From the IMG/VR virus record IMGVR_UViG_3300030106_004152, positions 1 through 44,872 of that record: a DNA stretch of 44,872 nt; one strand, given 5' to 3'. Shown in pieces: positions 16,215 through 38,775 of the stretch. How positions within the stretch are numbered: position 1 is the stretch's first letter; each line of letters begins with the position of its first letter. The notes beneath the pieces were generated by a model. The model was given only the letters and a program-made list of their open reading frames with translations, was not told the DNA's origin and did not search any database. Source of the stretch: a virus. The position numbers and the translations under genes are program-made.

Positions 16215-19200
16215 ATGCCAGAAATTAAACACACTTTTATAGGCGGTAAAATGAACAAAGATCTCGATGAGAGAATTGTTCCAAACGGTGAGTATAGAGA
16301 CGCTAAAAATATTCAGGTTAGAACAACAGATGGGGATGCTGCTGGTACTGTTCAAGGTATAAAAGGTAACTCAAATATAGGTGTTTTTAGTGAATACGTG
16401 GGGCTTCCAGGTACAAATCTTTTCACACAAACAGTAGGTAGTGTTGTTGATGAAAAAAACGATAATATATATTTTTTCATGGCAGCACCAAGTGTTGGTA
16501 CTATATCTTTAAGTAGTATAACTTCTTTAACTGAAGATAAAACAAGGGTGTTTACAGATGGTATAGTAGAGCAGAATGTTGATGGAACAACAACTCCAGT
16601 AATTATTGATGAGCACACGTTGATTACTTCAGTTCAAAATGCTTTCACAGCTAGTAGTTCAATAACTGGATATAACACTGAAGGTGATTTGTGGCAAGAA
16701 ATAAAAATAACAGATATTGTTCTTAAGGAAAAAATAAGGCCTGGAATGAAGATGGAGATTTTTAACGCTGAAGGAGTCAATCAAACCCCTGGAGCTTTTG
16801 TTAAGAGTGTATATGTTAATACTACTAATGATACTGTAATTACTTTACATACGGGTTATGATAGTGATGTTAGTACGCTAATTACTGATAATACTGGGTG
16901 GGTTAAATTTTCAAGCCCACGAGTTTTAAATTTTAATTACGATTCACAGATAACAGCAATAAATATTATTGATAATCTACTTATATGGACTGATGGTGAT
17001 AGTGAGCCAAAAAAAATAAATATAGATAGATGTAAAGCTGGTACACCTGCTTTTGTAGCTGATGAACATGTTATTAATGGTGATTTTTCAGAAGACATAA
17101 CGCTGAACACTAATAACGATCCCTTAGTGGGTTGGGCTACAACAAATGCTGTAAACTTAGGTGGAGAAACTGTCCCATCTGTGGGTGTCTACACAAATAG
17201 CGACGGAGTAAATGTTTTAACGCTAGTAGGACTACAACATTGGAATCCTGTTTATGACGATAATAACGGTGAGGTAAGACAAAATGTAACAGGTTTAATA
17301 CCTGGTGATACTTATGAATTTTCTTTTGACTATGTAATTACAGCAGGTACGCTAACCTCCGACTTAAATAACGCTATCGATATAAACACTTCTCTCACTG
17401 GATCTGGTACTCATACTGAGTCATTTGTAGCAACCACAGATACTTTAGATATTATATTTTACGGAACAAATGCCACATTACCAGCGGATGGTGCTGTTTA
17501 CGGAAATGTATTTAACGTCTCTCTTTTAAATACTGGAACAACCACATATTCACATACAAAATTATTTGTAAGCGATCCAACGGACATAGACTCTGATGAA
17601 TACATACCAATAACAGAACTAGAGGTTTACGACTTTGAAGGAGATAAAATTGATGATAGTATAAAAGAAGAACATATAACTGTTATAAAGAAAGCACCAC
17701 TTGTCGCACCATCAATAATACTAAATGAAACAGATAGAGGTCAAGGAGCGGCAACTGTAAATATAACTGGTTGTCCTTTTATTTCATCTACACCACAATC
17801 TTCAACAAGTGGATTAAATGTAAATGATATACGTATATTTACTAGTGATAATCTTGATTCTACTATTTTTAGAGTAAACGATATTTTATACTTTGATTCT
17901 TCTTACTTAGAATATAACGACGACCAATCAACAGTTTTGTTAGAGGTAGATCTTAGGATTACATGTAGATTTATGTCTTATTTAGACGATGATCAGAATG
18001 AGGTTTACGAAGCCACTAATACAATTAAGGTGGAGATTTCTAGCTTTCCAACAGAGTATTTAGATCACACAGTCACAGATTGGAGTGTGTCACTAAAGCA
18101 AAAAGAACCACTATATGAATTAAAGCTAGGTAGATTTGCATATAGATATGTATATGAAGACGGGGAGTACTCTACTTTTAGTCCTTGGTCTGAATTAGCT
18201 TTTTTACCTGGGTTTTTTGAATATGAATCTAGAGGTGGTCATAATGCTGGAATGAAAAATAATGTTAGGGAGATTATTATAAAAGATTTTGTTCCTTTTA
18301 AAACTAAACCTTTAGACGTAAAAAGTATTGACATACTATATAAGGCAACAAATTCAGCTAGTTGTTATGTTGTGAAAACAATATCTAGAGGTGTTGACGC
18401 AGAGTGGGAGTTGTTTTCACCTAACACCAACGATGTTACTGGAAACTTATCTGGACAACTACATATAACATCTGAAGCTATTCACACTATTATATCAGAC
18501 GATCAAATATTAAGAACATGGGATAACGTACCAAGATATGCTAGTAGTCAAGAGATAACAGGTAATAGATTATTATTTGGTAACTATGTCCAGGGTTATG
18601 ATGTACAACTACCAGTTGGTTTAACTCAAGAGATTATTAGCGAAGAAATAACTAGTATAAAATATCCAAACAAATCTATTAAATCCATGAGAGACTACAA
18701 GTGGGGAATGGTGTTTGGGGATAAGTATGGTAGAGAAACACCTGTTTTCACGTCTGGTTATACATCTGGATATTTAGATACTTATTCTAGTTTAACGGGA
18801 GATATATCTTTAAACAAAGAGTTTTGTAATACTAAAAACTACTTTAGATTAAAACAAACATGGGATAATCCAATAAATTTAAACAATGCCCCACCTGACT
18901 GGGCTGACTATGTTAAGTTTTATGTTAAAGAAACATCTAACGAGTATTACAATTTAGTACTAAATGGTTGGTATTATGCTGATGATATAGAGGATACAGT
19001 GTGGTTATCATTTCAATCAACAGACAGAAATAAAGTTGACGAAGAAACATACTTGATACTAAAAAGTGTAAATGGAGAAGCGAAACCAGTTAAGGAAAAC
19101 TCTAAATATAAAATAATATCAATATCAAATAGTGCTCCAGATTATATAAAAACAAAACACCTTGATATAGGTAATGTTCAAATAACACCAGGTGACGGAG

Positions 19201-22200
19201 CAACTGGGACTACAATATGGTCATCTGGTAACGGTGTTGATGTTACAAATACTATTCCAGATAACTTAATAACACCAGGTAATAAAGGTAGAATGTTCTC
19301 TATTGATACTAATGTTTGGGGAGGTATTTTTGGTATGGGTGCAAACAATATTGACGATAGACCTAGATCAATGAGTGCGTCTAAACTTAGTTTTAGAGTT
19401 CGTGGTACAGCAGGTAATGTTAGAAAATATACTAGATGGATCGAGATAACTAACTACAAACATGCTGGATCTACTGGTTTAAGTAATAGTACATCGAGCT
19501 CTGATTACTTTGACATATATTATGCTGAGGACATTGGGGATGAAGCAAACATGGTGCAAAGATTTCTAAATGATACATCTTTAGATTATACAGGAAGTGT
19601 AACTAATTTGACTTATCATTTTGAATTCAAAGAAGAGATTATTGAAAACACTCCAGAATTTGATGGAAGATTTTTTGTTAAAATTGAGATAGATCCTTCG
19701 CTTCGAAAAAATGTACTAAAAGAAGCAGTTACAACTGAACAATACGTTACTATAGGATCTTTTAATGTAGATTACATTGAAAGTGAGTCCACTACTTCTG
19801 CTCAATTACTTCAAGATGGCGTACAGTCAACTTGGGCTTGGGGACAGGGTGATGGTTGGTGGTATAATGCTTTTAACGAAGTAGATCAATGGACTAGTTT
19901 CTCAAACGGTGGTTCACCATATGCTTGGGATGGAAACCAGGGTCCCTCAAGTTTATCAGGACAATTATCAACTGGTGGGGTATATGCTGACTCTTATTAC
20001 GCATTTTCAGGATTAACGTTCTGGCAGGGTATGTTAAATGGTGGTGAAGGTAATCAAACGTGGTTAATGAATGATGATGGTTCATGGGAATATTATTATT
20101 GGGATGCTCCTAATATAATAATGATAGTCCCACAAGAACAAGCGATTTCTAGTGCTAATACTGATTTAAACGCTACAGCTGGAGGAAATTCCGTAAGTGG
20201 ATTAGGTGGTGGATTTGCGTGGTACTGTTGGGACGCTCAAACAAAGAGTTTTTGGTCTTCAAGAAAAGCTAGTAGAGCTAGTAGACCTTTTATTGATGCC
20301 GCTGCAATAGCAGGTACTAGACAAGGAAGTTACGTTGATTATGATGACTATCCACAATTTAGAACTATGACTATAGGTACCGCTGCTAATCAAAGACCAA
20401 CTGGTTTAGATGATGGTCAATTGACCAATCAAATAATGACAAACAATGGATTAACCTCCACAACACCTACCGCTGGTACCTTAGGTAGAATGTGTTTAGC
20501 TGTAACAGGGTACGCTTCTTACGCCTCAATGAATACCGCTGACAGACAGTTCATGGAGAAAATGAAAACAACAGGTACTATTTTTAGGTTTACTGGCGAT
20601 CCCGACAACATATATAGAGTTTTAATGGCGGAAGACTACGTGGATGCGGCGAATGACATGGACTGGTACAGTACTTACGACCATATAGAGGTTAGTCAAT
20701 ATGGTGGAAACAATATTAGATTAGGTTTTAGAATTAATTTTAGAAAGGTTGATGAAAGTACTAATGTTACTCATGATGGAATTGATGTTAGTAGCTTTGA
20801 TCCAAGGGGAACAGTTAGACATGATGGTACAGCATCTACGGGTATTGAAATACTTAGGCACACGAGAATAGGTGGTGGTCAAGTAATAGTGTTAAGTGAT
20901 ATGGCTGTTTTTGAGACAGAACCAAAAGAAGACACAGATTTAGATATATATTATGAGGGATCTAGCTCGCTACCACTAGTATTAAATGAGGAAAATATAA
21001 ATAATTTTGTACCAATGAAGTGTGGTATTTCTATTGAGAGACCAGACCAAGACACGATAAAAAATATTACTTTACCTCTAGCTCAATCTCTTGACATTGT
21101 TAACAACCCAACAAATATAGTTTCTAATATAATAGCAAAACCTCGCTTATTTAATACAGATTCAGTTTTACCATCAGATATAAATGGAGAATCTCCTCGT
21201 GGTATTGGAGACCCAATAGTGCATATAACAAATATAGATGGAGCAGGTACGGAGGTTGATCAAAGTAATGGTATATATGTAGGTGATTATATTGTTTTTC
21301 ATCATAAAAATGGAACTAGAACTAGATCAAAAATAACTGGGTTTTATGAAAAAATAACCACAACAAATACTGATGGTGATATTATAGGGACTAGATTTTC
21401 TCCGATTCATTCTCACGTTGGATCAATACAAGCTAATCCAAATGTTGATGGTTGGCCAAGTAATGTTGTAACGAGTGGAGATAATGATTGGGATTTTGCC
21501 GCTGGTAACTACATAAATACAATAACAATATTTGAAGACGAAATAGATGGAAATGTTTCAGGAACCGCACCCTTAGAGGTTGGTATGCAGATGGTTGGTT
21601 ACGTGGAAATAGATGCTGACACTGGAGATGAAGTTACAGATGGTTTAACAGGTATAGCTCCACCAGGAATTGTAGTAGAAGAAATACTACCTCCAGATGA
21701 CAACGGCGATTACATTAAGATTAAAGTAACCAGCGCTACAGACACACCGTTTTACTGGACGAAATCAGATGGTACTTTGCAAACTTGGGAAGATTTTAAT
21801 AGCGCCACTGGAGCCAATCAAATGGGTAGAAAATTTAAAGTCGAATTTATACATCCACCAACTGGTTATTACTCTATTGATAAAAATGCGTGGAAATATC
21901 AGGTTGACTTAGATTGGTTTAATTGTTATTCATATGGTAATGGTGTAGAATCAGATAGAATTAGAGATACATTTAATGCTCCACAAATAGATAACGGGGT
22001 TAGGGTTTCATCCACGTTCTCTGGTTATAGAAAAGAAAACAAGACTAGTGGGTTGATATACTCCGGAATATACAATTCTACATCAGAGGTGAATAATTTA
22101 AATGAGTTCAACATGTCTCAGAAGATAACTAAAGATTTAAATCCATCTTATGGTTCTATACAAAGGTTAAAAACTAGAGACACAGATGTTGTTGTTTTTA

Positions 22201-23099
22201 CTGAAGATAAAATATTAAAAGTTTTATCAAATAAAGATGCTTTGTATAATGCTGACGGAAACCCTCAGTTAACTGCTACTGAAATGGTATTAGGACAAGC
22301 TGTACCATTTGTTGGTGATTATGGAATATCTAAAAACCCAGAGTCATTAGCTTGGGATCAATACAGAATGTATTTCACAGATAAACAAAGAGGTGCTGTG
22401 TTAAGGTTATCAAGAGATGGCTTAACACCTATATCAAACGTGGGAATGAAAACGTGGTTTAGAGATAATTTAAAACTAGCCGATAGGGCTTTAGGCACCT
22501 TTGACGCAGTTAGTGGAGAATATAATTTAACACTAACTAAAACCGGTGGAGATTCTAATTATGATACAACAATATCTTTTAGTGAAGAATCTAAGGGATG
22601 GGTTAGTTTTAAATCATTTATTCCTTTAAATGGTGGATCAGTTAGTGGTTCTTATATAACATCTAACATGTATGTTATGTGGAAACACTATTTTTCTACT
22701 TCCTATAATACGTTTTATGCAAACTCATATGAATCATCTATTTCAGTTTTATTTAATGACTCACCTGGCACAATTAAATCTTTCAACTCTATCAACTATG
22801 AAGGTTCTCAAGCTAAAGTTGTTCAAAATACCACTGATACGAACGAGTTTTATAATTTAGACAGTAAAACAGGTTGGTATGTAAACTCTATAGAAACTGA
22901 CAAACAAAGTGGTACTGTTCCTGAATTCATAGAAAAAGAAGGTAAATGGTTTAATAAAATAAATGGTGTAGAAACTACTTTAAGCAACTTAGATACAAGT
23001 GAGTTTACAGTCCAAGGTGTTGGAGAGCCATATAGTGTATCATCAATATATTACCAAGGAGACACTACAACTGGTGGTGGATCAACGGTAGGAGGATAA
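16215..23099 (+). CDS. Giant stabilisation/tail-hub protein (tail tubular B-like role)
   Basis: A 2294-residue protein. The N-terminus has KMNKDLDERIVPNGEYRDAK (residues 13-32), and the C-terminal part has a propeller-like segment around 2034-2085 (DYGISKNPESLAWDQYRMYF, then RGAVLRLSRDGLTPIS). I associate both with the large stabilisation proteins of crAss-like and marine podoviruses, which sit below the ring proteins and anchor fibres. An inserted jelly-roll-like domain at about 285-438 starts VINGDFSED and contains PGDTYEFSFDY, as in carbohydrate-binding modules. A Trp/Tyr/Gly-rich insertion lies near 1205-1310. The C-terminus is Gly/Thr-rich. It is about twice the length I would expect, apparently through such insertions. 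Confidence 0.65.
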   Translation: MPEIKHTFIGGKMNKDLDERIVPNGEYRDAKNIQVRTTDGDAAGTVQGIKGNSNIGVFSEYVGLPGTNLFTQTVGSVVDEKNDNIYFFMAAPSVGTISLSSITSLTEDKTRVFTDGIVEQNVDGTTTPVIIDEHTLITSVQNAFTASSSITGYNTEGDLWQEIKITDIVLKEKIRPGMKMEIFNAEGVNQTPGAFVKSVYVNTTNDTVITLHTGYDSDVSTLITDNTGWVKFSSPRVLNFNYDSQITAINIIDNLLIWTDGDSEPKKINIDRCKAGTPAFVADEHVINGDFSEDITLNTNNDPLVGWATTNAVNLGGETVPSVGVYTNSDGVNVLTLVGLQHWNPVYDDNNGEVRQNVTGLIPGDTYEFSFDYVITAGTLTSDLNNAIDINTSLTGSGTHTESFVATTDTLDIIFYGTNATLPADGAVYGNVFNVSLLNTGTTTYSHTKLFVSDPTDIDSDEYIPITELEVYDFEGDKIDDSIKEEHITVIKKAPLVAPSIILNETDRGQGAATVNITGCPFISSTPQSSTSGLNVNDIRIFTSDNLDSTIFRVNDILYFDSSYLEYNDDQSTVLLEVDLRITCRFMSYLDDDQNEVYEATNTIKVEISSFPTEYLDHTVTDWSVSLKQKEPLYELKLGRFAYRYVYEDGEYSTFSPWSELAFLPGFFEYESRGGHNAGMKNNVREIIIKDFVPFKTKPLDVKSIDILYKATNSASCYVVKTISRGVDAEWELFSPNTNDVTGNLSGQLHITSEAIHTIISDDQILRTWDNVPRYASSQEITGNRLLFGNYVQGYDVQLPVGLTQEIISEEITSIKYPNKSIKSMRDYKWGMVFGDKYGRETPVFTSGYTSGYLDTYSSLTGDISLNKEFCNTKNYFRLKQTWDNPINLNNAPPDWADYVKFYVKETSNEYYNLVLNGWYYADDIEDTVWLSFQSTDRNKVDEETYLILKSVNGEAKPVKENSKYKIISISNSAPDYIKTKHLDIGNVQITPGDGATGTTIWSSGNGVDVTNTIPDNLITPGNKGRMFSIDTNVWGGIFGMGANNIDDRPRSMSASKLSFRVRGTAGNVRKYTRWIEITNYKHAGSTGLSNSTSSSDYFDIYYAEDIGDEANMVQRFLNDTSLDYTGSVTNLTYHFEFKEEIIENTPEFDGRFFVKIEIDPSLRKNVLKEAVTTEQYVTIGSFNVDYIESESTTSAQLLQDGVQSTWAWGQGDGWWYNAFNEVDQWTSFSNGGSPYAWDGNQGPSSLSGQLSTGGVYADSYYAFSGLTFWQGMLNGGEGNQTWLMNDDGSWEYYYWDAPNIIMIVPQEQAISSANTDLNATAGGNSVSGLGGGFAWYCWDAQTKSFWSSRKASRASRPFIDAAAIAGTRQGSYVDYDDYPQFRTMTIGTAANQRPTGLDDGQLTNQIMTNNGLTSTTPTAGTLGRMCLAVTGYASYASMNTADRQFMEKMKTTGTIFRFTGDPDNIYRVLMAEDYVDAANDMDWYSTYDHIEVSQYGGNNIRLGFRINFRKVDESTNVTHDGIDVSSFDPRGTVRHDGTASTGIEILRHTRIGGGQVIVLSDMAVFETEPKEDTDLDIYYEGSSSLPLVLNEENINNFVPMKCGISIERPDQDTIKNITLPLAQSLDIVNNPTNIVSNIIAKPRLFNTDSVLPSDINGESPRGIGDPIVHITNIDGAGTEVDQSNGIYVGDYIVFHHKNGTRTRSKITGFYEKITTTNTDGDIIGTRFSPIHSHVGSIQANPNVDGWPSNVVTSGDNDWDFAAGNYINTITIFEDEIDGNVSGTAPLEVGMQMVGYVEIDADTGDEVTDGLTGIAPPGIVVEEILPPDDNGDYIKIKVTSATDTPFYWTKSDGTLQTWEDFNSATGANQMGRKFKVEFIHPPTGYYSIDKNAWKYQVDLDWFNCYSYGNGVESDRIRDTFNAPQIDNGVRVSSTFSGYRKENKTSGLIYSGIYNSTSEVNNLNEFNMSQKITKDLNPSYGSIQRLKTRDTDVVVFTEDKILKVLSNKDALYNADGNPQLTATEMVLGQAVPFVGDYGISKNPESLAWDQYRMYFTDKQRGAVLRLSRDGLTPISNVGMKTWFRDNLKLADRALGTFDAVSGEYNLTLTKTGGDSNYDTTISFSEESKGWVSFKSFIPLNGGSVSGSYITSNMYVMWKHYFSTSYNTFYANSYESSISVLFNDSPGTIKSFNSINYEGSQAKVVQNTTDTNEFYNLDSKTGWYVNSIETDKQSGTVPEFIEKEGKWFNKINGVETTLSNLDTSEFTVQGVGEPYSVSSIYYQGDTTTGGGSTVGG

Positions 23100-27942: not shown

Positions 27943-30900
27943 ATGAAAAGATATCAATTCAAATTGAACGGTGAAATAGTATATAAAAATGTTTCATCAG
28001 AAAACGAAGAAGCTTTCTTCAATAAATACGGCAAATACAATCCCACTCTAACAACTGATGAGCCGGGAAAGTCTCAAGGGACAAGTCTGTCCCAAAACAA
28101 TCAACAAAAAAATACGGAATCTATATTGGAAGATGGTTCTTTGGGGTCACCAGGGAGTAAACCATCGTATACTGTAGGTAAAGAAAGTGTAACTAGAGAT
28201 AAAATAAAGGAATTGCTAAATGACAAGGACTTCATTAAAAAAATAATGGAAGTTCCTGGTAATACAATTAACGTTTCTAACGACGATGAAATACAAGAGT
28301 TGATGAACTCAGCTGTAAGTAGTTACAAGGTTGAAAAACAAAAGCAGCAAGAAGGATTAAAAAATAAATCTTTTTTAAAAGACCATGGTATAGCCCCATT
28401 TCCGTTTCAAGATAAATCAATAAGTGATGTTCAAAGTACTTTAAAAAATTGGTGGCAAGGTAAGGGTGAGTTTGAAAAGAAAACTCCTAATACTTACGAT
28501 TTACCACTATCTGAACAATTCAAACAATTAAATATAACAGGAAGTGATTTAAAACGATCATCTGAGGAAGCCGTGAATAACAAGTTTGGACTTGGTTTAA
28601 ATAACGAGCAAACATTCGTTGAAACGTTAAATGAAATATATAAAGATCAACCAGTCAAATTTGATCAAGCTGTTGTTGGTAATGACGCGGTAAAAGTTTC
28701 AATTGGAAATGATGAATTAGGTTTTGATGATGGTTATGTTTTTCAACTAACTCATCAAAGCGGTGATTTAGTGGAAACTAATTTTATGGAGTATGGTATT
28801 GACGAGACTATAGCGCAAGATATAGTTAATCATATAAATTACAAAACAGATGATGAATTTGCTACAAAATTAAACTCCACACTTTTAGACGCTTTTACTG
28901 AGAATCAAGATTTAGCAAGCTATGCTTCATCACCAGAGGCTATGCAAAAGTTTTGTAATCAATTAGATTTATATCAAGGTATTACAGAGAAAAATAGAAT
29001 AAATAACGCTAAGTTATGGCAACCTATATCTATGGTTACAGGTAAGGAATATGTAAATATGGATGGTTCTTTAGCCATAGATACCAATGGTGATGGTAAG
29101 CCAGACACTAATTTTAGTTATAATTATTTATGGCAAAATAGAAATAGATTAAGCAACTTAATAGAAGCTGGTGAAGTAGGTGAAATAGAGAAAAGACAAA
29201 TCATAAAACATGGCAATCTAGATGAAATAGACAAACATATACGTAGAAACAATGTCGCTTATTTTGATATAGAGGATCAAGAATTAAAAAAACTAGGCAC
29301 ATTAATAGAGCTAGCTAAAGCTGGTAAGACTGTTGATGGTGATGGGAATAAAATAGATATAGATAGTGACGCGGCTAGTGAATTATTAAAAGAACTACAA
29401 GGTAAGAAAGATAAGATAATAAAAGAAAATAACTATGTAGATTTTTACGATAAAGAAACTGGGAAGTTCATTGGTTTAAACAAGATAAACTGGATTAGAA
29501 ACCCTGAGAATTCAGCTGAAATGATTAAAGTTGATGATGAGGGTAATATAATTCCAGGTGAAACTAGACCAGCTACAAAATCAGATGATGAACAACTTAT
29601 ACAAAGCTTAGCTGATGGTGAAGGTAATGAAACAAACATGACCGACGAGGAGTGGTTGATCGATCTGCGAAGAAAAGAGTACTTTAGAATGCTATACCTA
29701 TCTAAGTTAGCTCATGATAATATAGACGAAGTTAAGTACCACATGAGATGGTGGCAAGAAATAGGTGGTGCTCTTATTGATCCAAACAACAATAGTATGG
29801 ATAATGACGAGAGACAGTTAGCTAGAGCTTGGGGAGAAGGTGGTAGCGAGGATATATTTGATCTAGGAGGATACAGCGGTGCTAATCTAGGGTCTATGCT
29901 TATGAATGCGGGTGTTATGGGTGGTACTCCTAATTATAATCCAGAAAATCTTCTAGACAGAGATGAATTTACTAAGTTGGTAGGTGGATCTGATATAGCT
30001 AAAAGATTCAACGAATCATTAGAAAACTTTAGAGCATATAGCAAGGCACTTGATTTAAATGTTAATCCACTAGAAGCTGACATAGAACCTTATCATCACA
30101 CGTTATTAAATGGCTTAAGTCAAGCTTGGACTGGAGAGAATTTAGTTGGTGGTAGCGAGTTTAGTAAAAGTCAAATCGCGGATAACATAGAGCATAATTT
30201 AAAACCATATTACGACATCGAACCCATACGTAATAATTCTTATTACGGTAGAGGTGACACGGGTTGGGCTGCTGCTAGAAGTTTAGCTGATCTATCAACA
30301 AACACCGTAACAAACTTAACTCCACTACTCGCTGAGATAGCTATATTTAAAAAACTTGGTGGTTTAAAAAGTTTAAATAGAATAGCTCATAGTGGCGTAA
30401 GAAAAACACTTCCTACTGTTAGAGGTATAAATAAATCTTTTACAGGATATAGCAATAGTAGAGTATATGAAGGTTTGATGCATAAGGTGGTTGTACCTAT
30501 GATGGTAACACCTATCGAGTGGGGTATGTCAGAGTATGGCGGTGAAGCTTTAATGGGTGATGGTAGTGGACTATGGGATGGTCACACTATGCACTACAAT
30601 AAAGAAACTGGTAGGATGGAATTTAAACCACTTTTTGCCATGACAATGGGTGCAGCTGGAGGTGTTTTTAATGTTGGTAGTAAAGCATTTCACAGAAAAT
30701 ATATTGAGTCAGGCGCTAAAGCTTGGATAAACGGACCAGTGTATAACGTAGTAGCTAATAATATACCATTAAAAATAAACACTGGTAAAGTTGGTGCTGC
30801 AGGTAGAACAGCCGCAATAACAGGTGGTGAAATGCTTGGTCAAGGTTTAACAGCATCATCACTATTAACTATTGCTAGTGCTGTAGAGCAGGTTCATAAA

Positions 30901-33900
30901 GATTACGAGAATGGTATATTCCCTTGGACCGATGTTGATCCTGATTCTCCTGAAGGTAAAAAAAGATGGGAAGAGTGGAAGCAAATTACAAACTTTGAAC
31001 ACTTTGTTGCTACAACTATAGGCTTCTCAGCATTGGGTGCGCCAAAGGTTTTACCAAAAGTAAAGAAAACGTTTGAACAAGAAGCAGCTAAGATAACCAC
31101 TGATAATGTTATTACATTAGGATATAAAAATAAACTTAGTTTAAAAGATGAACAAAGAAGAGAAGATAATGGTTGGGAAACAGAAGATATAACCAATGCT
31201 AAAAAGAAAAAGATTTCTGAATCTAAGAAAATTATAAAAAACGCTCAAAAGAAAATAGAACAACTACAAGGAGAGAGAAAATTAACTCCAGGTGGTAAAC
31301 AAGAAATACAAGATCTAAATAAAACCATAGAAAAAGAAAAAGCTAATATAAATAGTTATAACGTAGCAGCGAAAGGTTTACATAACAGAAACAATGTTAT
31401 CGCGATGCAGAAGGGCTTAAAGAGTCAGAGGAAGTATCAAGAGTATTTACAGAAGACTTATGAAGAAGGTTTAGACATGTTGTCTGGAGAAAAGACAGCA
31501 GCGGGACTAGATAGGATTTCTAAAATGGGTTATGATGATTTCGAGAGATTTTTAGTTGAAAATGGCATAGCAGGTAAAGATGCTGAAACACATTATAGAG
31601 TAATGTTCGACGCTATAAAAGTGGCTGGTGACATGGCTAAAAATGTTTATAAGCTTGAGGGTAAAGAGTATGATAGATGGATGATGGATAACCATAGATT
31701 GGTTCAAAATCAACTACAGCAAATGATGCTAGGTAATCAATCAAGAGAAAACCCAGGAAACAAATCACACGTAGATATTCAATTAAAAAAATTAAAAGAA
31801 AGACAGAAGCAATTACAGGAAAACATGGATTTGTCTCTATCTAAATATAACAAGAAGTTTGCAAAAGAATCAAAGAATTACAATGCTTACTTAAAGAAGG
31901 TTATTGAATCTAGTTTTAAGGACAAAAGATACGTTGAGATACCATCAACACTAGATTTTAAAAAACAGGTTGAGGAAGACGGCGGGACATGGGAGGAAGC
32001 TATGAACGCATATATATCCGCTGATGGAAAAAGAATATTTATAGATGGCGAAAGAGCTTTAAAAAATAAATCTTTAACAGATGGTATACATGAAATAACA
32101 CACATGCTACTTTTTGACTATCTTAAAGAAACTGTAACACGTGATGGTAGAAAAGAAAGAGTTATATCTGAAAGAGGTAAAGCTGTTATAGATTACATGT
32201 TAGATCAATTAAAGCCTGAAGAAAGACAAATGGTCGAGGACTTAGTTGAATTAAACTATAAGTATGATGTTGTTGATATTAGACCGGATGGTAAATTAGT
32301 TTATAGAGCTAAAGATGGTAAGTCAACAACAACAAAGAAATCAAAAGCTAAAGTTAATGAAGAAAGAGATTACTACGAGGAGTACGTAACTAAGTTAGCT
32401 GAGCTTGTACGTAAAGGCAAAATAAAACCTAGTGTAGATCTAAGTCAAAGAGTTGGTAAGGCTTTATTTCCTGTAATAAGATTTTTCAATAAAAACGCCT
32501 ATAAGTTTGATTTAAATCAAGCTGATAGTAAAAAAGCTGGGGAGGACTTATTGAAGTTTGTTGATTGGATGGGTACTAGAGGTTTAGATAAAAATGTTTT
32601 AGATGTTGGAGGAGTTGGTAGTGTTGAAGGTAAAAGTAATATTACTAAAAATAGAGACATCAATAACATGGTGCCAAATCTAAAGACAGGTTCACCAGAG
32701 ATAGTAAAAACAAATACTAACATATCTAATGCTGTTATAGAAAGAGCTAAACAAAAGTTTGGTAAAAACTGGAGAGAGGTATTAACAAGTGATACAGCTG
32801 AAAACAAGGCTAAACAAAAAGAATTTGTAAAAGAGACAACTGACCTAAGAAATGATATAGTAGATAATAATATTAACGTAGCTAGATATATGGCTAACCA
32901 TCCTAAGTATGGTGGTAAAGGTAAATTTAACACACAGTTAAGTAAGGAGGGTTTAGTTTCACCTGAAGAGTTTTTTAATTCATTTAGAAAAGAATTAGTT
33001 GAGTTAAGTAACACTTGGAATCCAGCTAAGAATCCAGAGATTGGAGCTTATTTATTTGATATTATAAAGTATAGATACCCAGGTATAATGGAAACATTAA
33101 AGGGTGGTAGAATAGCCGATGTCACTAGATCTATAACAACAGAGGACGGTAGAGAGATAAGTATTGAATCTATAGATAATTATGAAAGGTTTGAATCTCA
33201 AAATATATTAGAGGTAGAAGCTAGAAAAAGAGAGGCAGGAAGAATACAAGAGGAGTATGGCGGCTACATTGAAATGTCTAAACTTAGAAATGAAATAGGT
33301 ATAGAAGATGTTCACAAAGCTGAAATATTTAGAAAAGTTCAAATGGATTTAATGTCTGTTAGCACTAAATCACCATTAGATATTTCACAAAAAGATTTTT
33401 TAAAGTCTCTAAACGAGGCTACAAAATGGACTCATTATGATTTACTGTCTGAAGTATTAACTCCACTTAAAATGGAGAAATATAGAAAAATTATACTAGA
33501 GTCTATACCAATCTCTCAACTTAGAGACATGCAAAAACACCTGCCTCAAGGACAAGTATTTGTAGAGGCGTTAAAGCATCCTACGAAATCCAAGTGGAGT
33601 TCTGAAAGAGAAATAGAGGAGTTTATGGGTATACACGGTAAAACAGAGTATAATCCCACTGGAAAAAACTTACTACCAGAAATGAAAAAACTTTATGATT
33701 CATTTTCGCGAGTACCAAAAGATCAGAGAACTAACATGCCTGAGTATATTGAATATAAGAAGAAAATAAAATCTGGTTTCCCAAATGTATGGCGCAGAAG
33801 AAATGTTGACTCAAACGTCTGGAGCACTTGGTTGCAAAGCAAGTATTTAGGTAAAAGACAGAAAGTTGAAAGATCCGGTACCAAAGGTAATAATAGAGAA

Positions 33901-36900
33901 AACGTTTTAAGAAAACTATCAACATCGTTAACTAAGGATGTTATACCAGAATTACTAGCAGACAAGTCCTTTATTGATCGATACATGACATCTAAGGGAC
34001 TCGAGGGTCAGATAGAGGCTAAAGCATTAATAGATCAGTTTGTTAATAAGATAGACAGAAATCAAGGTTTACAGTTTAAGAAAGATGTTGAGGGAATGAT
34101 AACTGAAGCTCAAAGAAAGAAGCTTGAAAAAGATCGTATTAGCATGGAGCTAACTCAAGCTGGTGCTCAATCGATAAAAAGAATGTATGATTTAGTTAAC
34201 AAGATAGCTGAAGTTGGTTTACATAATGTCTACGATCTTAAAACAAAGTCAGGTGAAAAACTGAAATTAGAAGATGGTGTAGAGCTAACCGCAGAAATGA
34301 AGAAGCAGTTTAAGAATTTAGAAAATTCTGAAGCTAAATTTGTTTTTGAAGAGTTAGTGCTTAAGGATAAGGTATTTAATCATGAGGGTAATATAAAGGT
34401 TAAAGAGATATTACAAGGAGTAGATGCGGGTCGTAAGCGTAGTATTGGTTTTGAACAATTTATCATAGATAGGTTTAAAGAAATAAATGGATTAAAACTA
34501 TTAACAGAGAAACAAACTGAAAAAGGAGATTTACCAGATGTTCATGGAGAGTTGTTTGGTAAAATGTTCAATGTTGAAGTTAAAATGCCTAATGCTAGAC
34601 TCGGTAGTTTTACTGGTGGTGTAGATATTAGAAACAACAAAATGCTACCGGTTACAACACTAAACTTTAATAAAGTTAGAGACAGAGCTCAAGTAGAAGA
34701 ATTACTTAAAGACGCTTTAAAAGGTTGGAAAGAGATAGGTAAATACTACAAGAAACTATCTAAATTCCCAGGTATATCTAAAAGAGATAAAACACTTTTA
34801 TCTAACTTCAACAAACACAATAGTCCTATTCCCGAGTGGGCGTTTAAATCTGCTTTAGAAGCTGGTCTCTATAATCAAGCTAGATCAACAGGTGTTTTTA
34901 CAGAAAGACTAATAGAGGATATGTATAGGTACAAAAAACATCCATCAAACTACATGTTGTGGTTAGGCAGAGGTCTTCTTCATTTAGGTAGAAACACTCA
35001 CGGATTAAACACCACTAAACTAACTGGAGAATTCTATGGTAGTTGGGGTCATAGCAAAAGTTCTATATCTGGTGAAACAACAAAGCATGAAGCTTTTGTA
35101 ACTAAAGAAAATCCGTTAGGCAAAATTGATGCTAATGGTTTGGTTTCTACTAGTCTAAGATTTATACCAACAGCTAAACAAATTACTAGTAAAAATTCCA
35201 AAATAGATATAACTAGCAAGCAAGGTATTGAAAACTTTAATAAAAGTATAAAGGAAGCTGAAGCCATAAGACAACAAAGTGCTGCTAAACAAAAACAAAA
35301 AATTACAGCTTCTAAAGCTGTGGAGAATATAAGAAATTATATAGAGGCTAGAAATAAAAAAAGAGGAATGTCCACTTTTGATTTTGACGATACATTAGCA
35401 TTTACTAAATCTGGTGTTAGAGTTACAACGCCAAACCCTAGTGGTTTACCTAGACCAGGTAGAAAAGTTATATTCTTAGCTGGTGGAGCTGGTAGCGGTA
35501 AAGGTAATGTCGTTAGTAAATTAAATCTTGAGAAACTAGGAATGAAAATAGTTAACCAGGATATATCATTAGAATGGTTAAAGAAAAACTCAGGACTACC
35601 TGAAGACATGAGGGATTTAACTAAAGCGCAAAAAAGCACGCTTGGTAAATTAAGTGCTCAAGCTAGAGGTATTGCTAAGAGAAAAATGATGAAGTTTCAA
35701 GGTAAAGGTGATGGAGTTGTGATTGATGGTACAGGTGGGTCTGTTAAGTCAATGGAGAAACTAGTAAAAGAATTCGCTGACAAAGGATATGATGTTAGCA
35801 TGTTGTTCGTTGACACATCACTAGATGTTGCTTTAGCTAGAAATAGAGCTAGAAAAGAAAGATCTCTACTAGATTTTATTGTTGAGAAAAATCACAAAGC
35901 TGTGCAAGAAAACAAACCGGTGTTTAAAGAAATGTTTGGTGAAAGATTCATGGAAATAAATACCGATAAATTAAAAATGACCGATCCAATGCCCAAAGAG
36001 CTCACGGTAAAGATAGATGATTTTATTAAAAGCTATGAGAAGACTAGGATAGATGCTGAAGAGTTTGCATTAAGAGGTGAGGAAATATTAAAGCGTGGTG
36101 GTGAATTTGATTTCTCAGAATTTAATAAAGTTGTTGAAGGAACTGAAGGACCATATTTGCAAAAAGCTATAGAAAGAGCTAAAAAATATGGAACAAAAGA
36201 TATGTTTGTTTTAACAGCTAGACCTATGGAATCTGCTATTGCTATACAGCAGTTTTTAAAATCACAGGGATTAAATATTCCTATAGAAAACATAACTGGA
36301 TTAGCTAATAGTTCTGGTAACGCAAAAGCTAAATGGATGTTAGAAAAGTTTGCCGAAGGATACAACGATATGTATTTCGTAGATGACGCTATGCCAAACG
36401 TAAAAGCTGTTAAAAAAGTATTAGACCAACTAGACATTAAGTCTAATGTTGTTCAAGCTAAAATACAAAAGAATAAAGATTTATCTTTAGAAATAAACAA
36501 AATGTTATCTAGACAATCTAGTATAGATTTTAATAGAAAAATATCATTAGCTGAAGCTAGATTGTTGGGTAAAGGGAAAGGTAAGTTTGACTATTTTGTA
36601 CCACCATCAGCGGAGGATTTCCAAGGACTTTTATATAAGCTTTTAGGTAGAGGTAAGCAGGGTGAGGCTGATATGAAGTTTTTTAAAGAAAATCTTCTTG
36701 ATCCTTTCGCTATTGGTATTAGAGATTTAACAATCACAAAGCAAAAAATGGCCGATGAGTATAGTGCTCTTAGAAAAAAATCTAAAGATATTGATCTTAG
36801 TAAAAATGTAGAAGGTACACCATTTAATAATAATCACGCTGTTAGAGTTTTTCTTTGGGAGAAAGCAGGATTTGAGATTCCAAATATTTCTGAAGCTCAG

Positions 36901-38775
36901 AAAAAAACTTTAGTAGATCACGTTAATAATAATTCTAAGCTACTTAATTATGCTGAAACACTAAGTGCTATAAGTAGATTAAATGAGGGTTATATAAAAC
37001 CAAGTGAATATTGGGAGATAGAAAATATAGCCAGTGATTTAAATACTATAACTAGAGGACAAACTAGATCTGGATTTCTAGCAGATTGGATAGCAAATAA
37101 AAATATAATATTCTCTAAAGAGAATTTAAACAAAATACAATCTATACATGGAAAGTGGTATAGAGAATCATTAGAAAATATGCTTTATAGAATGGAGACC
37201 GGGACTAACAGAATGACAGGTACAGATGGTGTCTCTAAAGAGTGGACGGATTGGATAAATGGATCAGTTGGAGCAACAATGTTCTTAAATATGAGATCTG
37301 CAATACTACAAACTATATCAACAGTTAACTTCACAAACTGGGCTGAAAATAATCCAATAGCTCAAGCAAGAGCATTTGCTAATCAACCTCAGTATTGGAA
37401 AGACTTTGCATTCATAATAAACTCCCCAATGTTAAGACAAAGGAGAGCAGGTTTAGAAATAGATGTATCAGCTAGTGAGTTAGCAAATATATTTGAAACT
37501 AGCGGGAAAAATCCCAAAGCTGTATTGAGATATATCTTACAAAAAGGATTTTTACCAACTAGAATTGCAGATAGTTTTGCAATAGCACTAGGTGGAGCTC
37601 CTTATTATAGGAATAGATTAAACATGTATATGAAGCGTGGTTTATCTAAGGCAGAAGCTAAAGAAAGAGCGTGGTTAGATTTTCAGGAATTAGCAGAACA
37701 AACACAGCAGTCATCTAGACCAGATTTAATATCGCAGCAACAAGCTGGTCCAATGGGTAGAATAATACTAGCTTGGCAAAATACGCCAATGCAAATGACT
37801 AGATTAATGAAGAAAGCTTTGTCCGACTTGGTTAATCGTAGAGGAAGTGATAAACAAAATATATCTAGAATATTATATTATGGGTCAATACAGAATCTAT
37901 GGTTTTATGCTCTTCAATCTGGGTTAGGTTGGTTAATGTTTGGTAGTGATCAAGAGGAGATGATAAAGAAAAAAGAACTACAAGTTTTAAATGGCTCATT
38001 CGATACGGTGCTTAGAGGTACGGGTGTTTATGGTGCGGCTGTATCAACTATTAAAAATACGTATTTAAAGTATAGAGCTGAAAAAAATAAACCTAGATGG
38101 AAAAGAGATCAAGCCAACACTATAATAGAGGCAATAAATCTTTCTCCACCAATCGGTGCTAAAGCTAGAAAAGTGTATTCAGCTATATCATCTTATGATA
38201 AGTTCGACGCTAAGGGTGTTAGTAAGGAAATTGGGTTAAGAATAGAAAATCCAGAACTATACGCTACAGCAAACTTTATTGAAGCTGCCACAAACTTCCC
38301 TATGGCTAGGATCGTTAACAAGGCTAATAATTTAGAAGAGTTAGTTACTGGTAATCACGAGTGGTGGCAAAGAGCAGCCATGCTTGGTGGATGGAGTAGA
38401 TGGAACGTGGGGGCTAAAGATGAGGAGTTAGAAGCAGCAAAGGATGCTGCTTATGAAAAAGGGAAAGAACGAAAAAAGCAAGAACGAGAAGAAGAAAAAA
38501 TCAAAAAGAAAAAAGAAGAAGAAGCTGAAAAGAAAAGAAAAGGTATTAAAACAGTTAGATGTTCTGGAAAAAATTCATCAGGCAAGCGATGTAGTTTAAC
38601 AACGGAAACAACAGCTAAAACATGGAAGTGTTTTCATCATGCAGCTTTTAAAGATGGTATGGATAGAGACGGTGATGGTATAAAAGAATATAGATGTACA
38701 GCCACTAAGTCTAATGGTCAAAGATGTAAGAATAAAACTGAGAATAAAAACAAGAGATGTTATGCTCATCAATAA
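27943..38775 (+). CDS. Giant multi-domain virion protein (probable ejected polyvalent protein)
   Basis: A 3610-residue single chain. In order: a short N-terminal beta segment; a Ca-loop-like DTNGDGKPD (380-388); hydrophobic patches (about 785-985); a coiled coil (about 1085-1145); a metallopeptidase motif HEITH (1383-1387) with Glu 1479/1480 as possible third ligand; long helical regions; a PD-(D/E)XK nuclease motif (E2171, D2199, E2212, K2214); a HAD phosphatase (D2480/D2482, T2758, K2795 or K2797, D2814/D2815) split by a P-loop kinase (2514-2521 GGAGSGKG, D2540, D2595); a hydrophobic and amphipathic region (about 3100-3370); a Lys/Glu helix; and two Cys3His zinc modules (3540-3610). Such proteins are packed in the virion and injected with DNA to disarm or repair the cell. 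Domain calls are by motif. Confidence 0.75.
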   Translation: MKRYQFKLNGEIVYKNVSSENEEAFFNKYGKYNPTLTTDEPGKSQGTSLSQNNQQKNTESILEDGSLGSPGSKPSYTVGKESVTRDKIKELLNDKDFIKKIMEVPGNTINVSNDDEIQELMNSAVSSYKVEKQKQQEGLKNKSFLKDHGIAPFPFQDKSISDVQSTLKNWWQGKGEFEKKTPNTYDLPLSEQFKQLNITGSDLKRSSEEAVNNKFGLGLNNEQTFVETLNEIYKDQPVKFDQAVVGNDAVKVSIGNDELGFDDGYVFQLTHQSGDLVETNFMEYGIDETIAQDIVNHINYKTDDEFATKLNSTLLDAFTENQDLASYASSPEAMQKFCNQLDLYQGITEKNRINNAKLWQPISMVTGKEYVNMDGSLAIDTNGDGKPDTNFSYNYLWQNRNRLSNLIEAGEVGEIEKRQIIKHGNLDEIDKHIRRNNVAYFDIEDQELKKLGTLIELAKAGKTVDGDGNKIDIDSDAASELLKELQGKKDKIIKENNYVDFYDKETGKFIGLNKINWIRNPENSAEMIKVDDEGNIIPGETRPATKSDDEQLIQSLADGEGNETNMTDEEWLIDLRRKEYFRMLYLSKLAHDNIDEVKYHMRWWQEIGGALIDPNNNSMDNDERQLARAWGEGGSEDIFDLGGYSGANLGSMLMNAGVMGGTPNYNPENLLDRDEFTKLVGGSDIAKRFNESLENFRAYSKALDLNVNPLEADIEPYHHTLLNGLSQAWTGENLVGGSEFSKSQIADNIEHNLKPYYDIEPIRNNSYYGRGDTGWAAARSLADLSTNTVTNLTPLLAEIAIFKKLGGLKSLNRIAHSGVRKTLPTVRGINKSFTGYSNSRVYEGLMHKVVVPMMVTPIEWGMSEYGGEALMGDGSGLWDGHTMHYNKETGRMEFKPLFAMTMGAAGGVFNVGSKAFHRKYIESGAKAWINGPVYNVVANNIPLKINTGKVGAAGRTAAITGGEMLGQGLTASSLLTIASAVEQVHKDYENGIFPWTDVDPDSPEGKKRWEEWKQITNFEHFVATTIGFSALGAPKVLPKVKKTFEQEAAKITTDNVITLGYKNKLSLKDEQRREDNGWETEDITNAKKKKISESKKIIKNAQKKIEQLQGERKLTPGGKQEIQDLNKTIEKEKANINSYNVAAKGLHNRNNVIAMQKGLKSQRKYQEYLQKTYEEGLDMLSGEKTAAGLDRISKMGYDDFERFLVENGIAGKDAETHYRVMFDAIKVAGDMAKNVYKLEGKEYDRWMMDNHRLVQNQLQQMMLGNQSRENPGNKSHVDIQLKKLKERQKQLQENMDLSLSKYNKKFAKESKNYNAYLKKVIESSFKDKRYVEIPSTLDFKKQVEEDGGTWEEAMNAYISADGKRIFIDGERALKNKSLTDGIHEITHMLLFDYLKETVTRDGRKERVISERGKAVIDYMLDQLKPEERQMVEDLVELNYKYDVVDIRPDGKLVYRAKDGKSTTTKKSKAKVNEERDYYEEYVTKLAELVRKGKIKPSVDLSQRVGKALFPVIRFFNKNAYKFDLNQADSKKAGEDLLKFVDWMGTRGLDKNVLDVGGVGSVEGKSNITKNRDINNMVPNLKTGSPEIVKTNTNISNAVIERAKQKFGKNWREVLTSDTAENKAKQKEFVKETTDLRNDIVDNNINVARYMANHPKYGGKGKFNTQLSKEGLVSPEEFFNSFRKELVELSNTWNPAKNPEIGAYLFDIIKYRYPGIMETLKGGRIADVTRSITTEDGREISIESIDNYERFESQNILEVEARKREAGRIQEEYGGYIEMSKLRNEIGIEDVHKAEIFRKVQMDLMSVSTKSPLDISQKDFLKSLNEATKWTHYDLLSEVLTPLKMEKYRKIILESIPISQLRDMQKHLPQGQVFVEALKHPTKSKWSSEREIEEFMGIHGKTEYNPTGKNLLPEMKKLYDSFSRVPKDQRTNMPEYIEYKKKIKSGFPNVWRRRNVDSNVWSTWLQSKYLGKRQKVERSGTKGNNRENVLRKLSTSLTKDVIPELLADKSFIDRYMTSKGLEGQIEAKALIDQFVNKIDRNQGLQFKKDVEGMITEAQRKKLEKDRISMELTQAGAQSIKRMYDLVNKIAEVGLHNVYDLKTKSGEKLKLEDGVELTAEMKKQFKNLENSEAKFVFEELVLKDKVFNHEGNIKVKEILQGVDAGRKRSIGFEQFIIDRFKEINGLKLLTEKQTEKGDLPDVHGELFGKMFNVEVKMPNARLGSFTGGVDIRNNKMLPVTTLNFNKVRDRAQVEELLKDALKGWKEIGKYYKKLSKFPGISKRDKTLLSNFNKHNSPIPEWAFKSALEAGLYNQARSTGVFTERLIEDMYRYKKHPSNYMLWLGRGLLHLGRNTHGLNTTKLTGEFYGSWGHSKSSISGETTKHEAFVTKENPLGKIDANGLVSTSLRFIPTAKQITSKNSKIDITSKQGIENFNKSIKEAEAIRQQSAAKQKQKITASKAVENIRNYIEARNKKRGMSTFDFDDTLAFTKSGVRVTTPNPSGLPRPGRKVIFLAGGAGSGKGNVVSKLNLEKLGMKIVNQDISLEWLKKNSGLPEDMRDLTKAQKSTLGKLSAQARGIAKRKMMKFQGKGDGVVIDGTGGSVKSMEKLVKEFADKGYDVSMLFVDTSLDVALARNRARKERSLLDFIVEKNHKAVQENKPVFKEMFGERFMEINTDKLKMTDPMPKELTVKIDDFIKSYEKTRIDAEEFALRGEEILKRGGEFDFSEFNKVVEGTEGPYLQKAIERAKKYGTKDMFVLTARPMESAIAIQQFLKSQGLNIPIENITGLANSSGNAKAKWMLEKFAEGYNDMYFVDDAMPNVKAVKKVLDQLDIKSNVVQAKIQKNKDLSLEINKMLSRQSSIDFNRKISLAEARLLGKGKGKFDYFVPPSAEDFQGLLYKLLGRGKQGEADMKFFKENLLDPFAIGIRDLTITKQKMADEYSALRKKSKDIDLSKNVEGTPFNNNHAVRVFLWEKAGFEIPNISEAQKKTLVDHVNNNSKLLNYAETLSAISRLNEGYIKPSEYWEIENIASDLNTITRGQTRSGFLADWIANKNIIFSKENLNKIQSIHGKWYRESLENMLYRMETGTNRMTGTDGVSKEWTDWINGSVGATMFLNMRSAILQTISTVNFTNWAENNPIAQARAFANQPQYWKDFAFIINSPMLRQRRAGLEIDVSASELANIFETSGKNPKAVLRYILQKGFLPTRIADSFAIALGGAPYYRNRLNMYMKRGLSKAEAKERAWLDFQELAEQTQQSSRPDLISQQQAGPMGRIILAWQNTPMQMTRLMKKALSDLVNRRGSDKQNISRILYYGSIQNLWFYALQSGLGWLMFGSDQEEMIKKKELQVLNGSFDTVLRGTGVYGAAVSTIKNTYLKYRAEKNKPRWKRDQANTIIEAINLSPPIGAKARKVYSAISSYDKFDAKGVSKEIGLRIENPELYATANFIEAATNFPMARIVNKANNLEELVTGNHEWWQRAAMLGGWSRWNVGAKDEELEAAKDAAYEKGKERKKQEREEEKIKKKKEEEAEKKRKGIKTVRCSGKNSSGKRCSLTTETTAKTWKCFHHAAFKDGMDRDGDGIKEYRCTATKSNGQRCKNKTENKNKRCYAHQ
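34435..34770 (+). other. PD-(D/E)XK nuclease-like domain within the giant protein
   Basis: Residues about 2165-2276. Helix GFEQFIIDRFKEI carries E2171. A turn follows with D2199 (in PDVHGELFG), then strand FNVEVKM with E2212-V-K2214. This E...D...ExK order is the classical active site of the restriction-enzyme/resolvase-like fold. It would cut DNA (or RNA) using Mg2+. Confidence 0.6.
35368..36465 (+). other. HAD phosphatase with nested P-loop kinase within the giant protein
   Basis: HAD motif I (FDFDDTLA, D2480 and D2482) is followed within 40 residues by Walker A (GGAGSGKG, 2514-2521), NQD (D2540), VVIDGTGG (D2595) and an Arg-rich lid (ALARNRARKERS). Only then do HAD motifs II (VLTARP, T2758), III (GNAKAKW) and IV (YFVDDA, D2814) come. 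The kinase is thus inserted where HAD enzymes carry a cap. The pair resembles polynucleotide kinase/phosphatase chemistry. Confidence 0.65.

Follow-up and report, generated by a model that had tools for sequence, protein, structure and literature searches.

The question raised by this locus is why a phosphatase should be interrupted by a complete kinase in a very large phage protein, and on which substrates and at which stage of infection such a pair would act. The window, i.e., the whole stretch of DNA analyzed, is a 44.9-kb record from an uncultured virus that encodes a crAss-like terminase, portal, virion proteins, and muzzle. The crAss-like muzzle protein gene (16215..23099, + strand; PF25729, E 1.8e-6; phrog_14478, E 2e-122) lies upstream of a giant ORF, P0001 (27943..38775, + strand; 3610 aa, open throughout), and serves as a context marker. 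From its HExxH motif and domain layout, the giant is a polyvalent-type protein, and it bears both a HAD phosphatase and a kinase.

Architecture of the nested unit

Residues 2475-2845 of the giant form a HAD phosphatase into which a complete P-loop kinase is inserted after motif I. The N-terminal piece of the phosphatase (residues 2475-2503; 35365..35451, + strand) carries motif I, DFDDT (D2480, D2482), and the first strand of a flap hairpin. The nested kinase (residues 2507-2696; 35461..36030, + strand) displays a Walker A motif GGAGSGKG (2514-2521, with K2520), an NQD motif with the base D2540, VIDGTG with D2595 (DGTG at 2595-2598), and a RNxxRxxR lid (2633-2640), while the C-terminal piece of the phosphatase (residues 2700-2845; 36040..36477, + strand) harbors LTAR with T2758, K2795, and D2814-D2815. 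In Pfam, residues 2509-2641 match AAA_33 (E 1e-10) and Zeta_toxin (E 5e-7); each match exceeds the cut-off of its family, the Zeta_toxin profile scoring 29.8 and 33.6 bits vs. a cut-off of 22.3.

In the AlphaFold2 model of the nested unit (pLDDT 84.5, pTM 0.77), the kinase (approximately model residues 40-230) tips a β-hairpin made of strands 26-31 and 232-237, which comes after HAD motif I. A two-stranded hairpin at this place is the flap capping HAD active sites; since the kinase is inserted at the tip of this flap, which is a cap site, it would adjoin the phosphatase active site. None of the catalytic residues of either domain varies among the 56 nested sequences (the window protein and 55 relatives, including loci from a second scan), which excludes chance motif matches, and the identical nesting in 55 other contigs excludes a mis-joined contig. 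Both domains are under strong purifying selection: for eight pairs, dN/dS was 0.01-0.12 in the kinase and 0.006-0.22 in the C-terminal part of the HAD (0.09-0.32 for the whole giant gene), values that also exclude a degenerate relic. Judging from sequence, both domains are catalytically complete and apparently active, and it is very probable that the giant has a kinase as well as a phosphatase activity.

Nested, tandem, and empty forms

A scan of viral contigs yielded 80 relatives, most of them arranged like the window. However, in about 20 giants (L061-L081), around a quarter of the relatives, the site is empty: motif I of the same HAD runs straight to motif II. These orthologues without insert prove the nesting, so that the claim of an earlier note on this DNA, namely a HAD phosphatase split by an inserted P-loop kinase with its motifs at particular residues, is borne out; they also indicate that the pair is not obligatory. 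In a tandem form (L059, L060, and L095), an intact HAD is directly followed by the kinase, as in mammalian PNKP where the HAD also precedes the kinase. The kinase is found beside the HAD in giants in these two positions, nested and tandem. One divergent nested form, L099, has a second partial HAD match approximately 150 residues downstream.

In a HAD tree computed without the kinase, the nested state requires three changes, although this tree comprises only 145 columns, leaves some forks open, and has L099 as a long branch. The empty L061 and L062 branch within the nested clade and are best read as a clean kinase loss. In the kinase tree, the tandem copies fall among the nested ones, so the kinase has probably been relocated within giants. 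On these comparisons, the kinase is a module that can be removed from, or moved around, a HAD that is itself near-universal.

No cultured phage with the nested unit turned up among the 50,697 phage records searched. A tblastn search of these records with the giant (E 1e-3) gave isolate-phage matches to the kinase and a weak match to the HAD only, known cargo proteins being unmatched. Among prokaryote genomes, only two HAD relatives were found, both kinase-less and in metagenome bins, which are probably phage contigs. A literature search, incomplete in coverage, returned no description of a nested HAD-kinase.

Fold and class of the two halves

When compared by VIA-align, the kinase best matched the Pnkp kinase of Clostridium thermocellum (Cth; Z 17.4, rmsd 2.8, 165 aligned), with which O-phosphoseryl-tRNA kinase (PSTK; Z 16.4) is tied, followed by zeta (14.2), T4 Pnkp (14), and adenylate and other small-molecule kinases and AvrRxo1 (Z 13-14). 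The HAD was predicted apart, from the empty-site orthologue L064 (pLDDT 84.9) and not from the split HAD of the window. Its six top matches were T4 Pnkp 3'-phosphatase (Z 11.4, rmsd 2.7, 126 aligned) and Pnkp1 (10.9), other HADs reaching 10.7 at most; this margin is slim, a Z of 11 for a Pnkp phosphatase being barely above other HADs. The structure prediction proposed in the earlier note gives P-loop and HAD folds, with Pnkp enzymes as the best matches for each half, the kinase tied with PSTK and zeta lower.

At the sequence level, a broadened kinase profile scores zeta toxin (35.6 bits) and T4 Pnkp (34.8 bits) nearly alike, but the T4 Pnkp match spans the lid whereas the zeta match ends before it. 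The HAD was matched in 18 of the 23 members of phrog_415, "polynucleotide kinase"; the HAD has no detectable sequence similarity to T4 Pnkp, and a HAD profile gave no meaningful match among PDB sequences. The class of the kinase, Pnkp/PSTK/zeta (DxTN), is secure. The acceptor arginine of T4 Pnkp, R38, located three residues after the base, is replaced here by L2543, a leucine in 56 of 56 sequences. Mammalian PNKP also lacks an R38-type acceptor arginine, so its absence rules out the T4 subtype but not the activity.

Probable virion delivery and free relatives of the kinase

The giant contains an HExxH zincin-like metallopeptidase motif, HEITH (residues 1383-1387; 32089..32103, + strand), which is conserved among giants: 69 were found in the giants of relatives vs. 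0.75 expected from shuffling, once per giant in nearly all and N-terminal to the HAD. A zincin peptidase is predicted from this motif only. In BLASTP among relatives, the N-terminal 2400 residues align in just 4-11, while the last 900 align in approximately 70 at 54% identity. Along the window, 27943-35000 of the giant is barely alignable between relatives, in contrast to 36040-38772, which is well kept. A Pfam run on the N-termini of other giants gave no informative match. Ahead of the HAD, at 34528-34590, a PD-(D/E)xK-like pattern DLPDVHGELFGKMFNVEVK might belong to a nuclease domain. The C-terminus (38551-38772) displays two Cys/His knuckle-like repeats (CxGKNSSGKRC...CFHH and CTATKSNGQRC...CYAHQ), kept by many relatives.

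Other members of the kinase family are mostly free proteins of approximately 225 aa, some of them in T4-like phages. Among T4-like phages, the kinases of Pelagibacter phage HTVC008M, Methylophilales phage Melnitz, and Agrobacterium phage Atu_ph07 are 30-35% identical to the nested kinase and have the same motifs; in all three there is no HAD in the chain. In Melnitz, HTVC008M, and most related metagenomic contigs, the kinase is free and has a capsid-targeting-like leader, unlike in Atu_ph07, where it lies in the middle of a 778-aa protein (L084, 2221-4557). An example of such a leader is MKTFAELQE↓GVYDP, while T4 internal proteins start with MKTYQEFIAE↓A, and the T4 protease cleaves after L/I-x-E (PMC9026906). 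The pattern [LIM]xE[GA] occurs in 46 of 50 distinct kinase leaders vs. 48 of 447 control ORFs from the same loci. Leaders ending in LxE↓G are seen on the free kinases of L098, L101, L116, L125, and L161 and on approximately 45 others. Cleavage of these leaders and packaging of the free kinases in the capsid are predicted, which is simple to check in cultured T4-like phages.

Other phage contigs include two lineages with a separate gene of the same HAD family 1-3 kb from the kinase gene. Nevertheless, free kinases mostly lack a nearby HAD, and most HAD genes were found without a kinase within 6 kb. Several further arrangements were observed. Klebsiella phage Matisse (L168, 2501-3854), a T4-like phage, has a kinase gene whose product begins with the leader MKSFKQF...LTEA, and a HAD gene comes immediately after it; the two (P0005 and P0006) were not counted as the same pair, since this HAD looks different and is annotated as a deoxyribonucleotidase. 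In L138 (8603-9625), a free HAD of the same family is joined to a domain that shows HECWH, an HExxH-like motif. In L094 (4778-6655), two family kinase genes are adjacent, the second being the closest free relative of the nested kinase.

Regarding delivery, the genes after the muzzle in crAss001 encode the virion cargo proteins gp45-gp50 (PMC10172136), and phage polyvalent proteins comprise zincin-like peptidases (Iyer et al., 2017, PMC5512222). The place of the giant after the muzzle, its HExxH zincin motif, and the capsid-targeting-like leaders of the free kinases make it likely that the giant is delivered with the virion, the T4-type leaders providing independent support. The earlier note had described a giant structural chain of the virion: the giant and its nested unit stand, "structural" does not, injected polyvalent cargo being the better reading, and its place in the virion is suggested by the features just listed.

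Proposed function and alternatives

Healing of nucleic-acid ends is the leading single hypothesis, although its probability is judged to fall somewhat short of even. It is favored because separate searches with the two halves each gave a Pnkp enzyme as the best solved match. According to this model, the giant, probably packaged in the virion as a polyvalent protein, would bear a two-activity phosphate-transfer unit in which the HAD phosphatase is the constant core and the kinase an insertion in its cap. Once injected, and perhaps cut free by the zincin peptidase of the giant itself, the unit would add phosphate to 5'-OH ends through its kinase and strip 3' or cyclic phosphates through its HAD, so that broken host or phage RNA or DNA ends would be made ligatable or otherwise processable before phage gene expression. 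A broader proposition can only be made tentatively and is rather doubtful: that virions deliver pre-made end-healing enzymes in general, as a nested kinase/HAD in an injected polyprotein in crAss-like phages and as capsid-targeted free kinases in T4-like phages, breaks being healed before phage gene expression.

End healing is put forward as a hypothesis and not as a result because the T4 acceptor arginine is missing and the ligase found is a DNA ligase only. Among 18 related records, which are fragments, no RtcB was detected and RNA ligase PF09511 gave no match, its control giving none either. An ATP-dependent DNA ligase is present in 14 of the 18, and six PF09414 matches were rejected as RNA ligase since they coincide with it. 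With no RtcB and no separate RNA ligase in these contigs, nothing points specifically to the countering of anticodon nucleases that the earlier note had envisaged. RNA ends are nonetheless not excluded by the missing RNA ligase, since T4 Pnk also promotes RNA decay without ligase (PMC3014915).

Other substrates have to be considered. Instead of polynucleotide ends, the pair could phosphorylate and dephosphorylate small nucleotides or defence signals derived from nucleotides (nucleosides, NAD derivatives, linearised cyclic oligonucleotides), thereby blunting early host defence. The kinase fold is indeed common to PSTK, to adenylate and other small-molecule kinases, and to AvrRxo1, the acceptor arginine of T4 Pnkp is absent, and a role of polyvalent proteins as carriers of signal-targeting enzymes has been proposed (PMC7824862); the preference of each half for a Pnkp enzyme speaks against it, and this reading is considered unlikely. 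Alternatively, the kinase could be a zeta-toxin-like sugar kinase phosphorylating UDP-N-acetylglucosamine, which would weaken the wall or reprogram the host while the HAD acts separately. Zeta scores highest by sequence with the broad kinase profile, Pfam Zeta_toxin is above cut-off, UniProt gives a near relative the name UDP-N-acetylglucosamine kinase, and polyvalent and MuF proteins are described as including kinases like zeta (PMC5512222). However, the kinase has a Pnkp/PSTK-type lid, which the profile match to zeta does not reach, the arginine of the zeta GTGR motif is G, A, or N here, and the structural match is poorer than that of Cth Pnkp (Z 14.2 vs. 17.4), so that a sugar kinase is held to be improbable.

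That the kinase is a mere passenger in a tolerant loop, kept or lost by recombination and functionally unlinked to the HAD, would fit with its absence from approximately 20 giants, its loss within the nested clade (L061, L062), and the permissive nature of a loop tip. Yet one and the same kinase family accompanies one and the same HAD family, whether nested, in tandem, or as a separate gene, and purifying selection on both domains is strong; there is little probability of such an unlinked passenger. The coupling of the two activities can be tested directly on the naturally occurring nested, tandem, separate, and empty forms.

Comparison with known systems

With regards to T4 Pnkp (PseT) and bacterial Pnkp1, the likeness consists of a P-loop kinase and a HAD phosphatase in a single chain, with an NxD base, a RNxxR lid, and the four HAD motifs; by fold, nothing matches the HAD half better than these enzymes, which also rank among the top matches of the kinase half. 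In T4 Pnkp, however, the domains are side by side and R38 is present. Known phage repair enzymes, e.g., T4 Pnkp, which works with a co-encoded RNA ligase, are made after infection, whereas the nested unit is part of a 3610-aa chain in a setting where no RNA ligase was found; a virion-borne kinase/phosphatase, if true, would already be active at the first attack on the phage genome and host RNA. Zeta toxin and PezT (UNAG kinases) share the Pfam Zeta_toxin match and the GTG motif but differ in their lid, RNxxRxxR here, and in the GTGR arginine, GTG[GAN] being found in 56 of 56 sequences; no antitoxin gene was noticed here.

The polyvalent proteins of Iyer et al. (PMC5512222) are also very large multidomain chains with a zincin-like HExxH and enzymes able to act early in infection, although in the passages found a kinase nested in a HAD is not described and crAss-like phages are not mentioned. 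While the giant, beyond its kinase and the weak HAD match, is without sequence match to isolate phages such as crAss001, it resembles crAss001 gp45-gp50 (PMC10172136) as a large protein whose gene follows the muzzle, virion carriage being described for the crAss001 proteins and likely for the giant.
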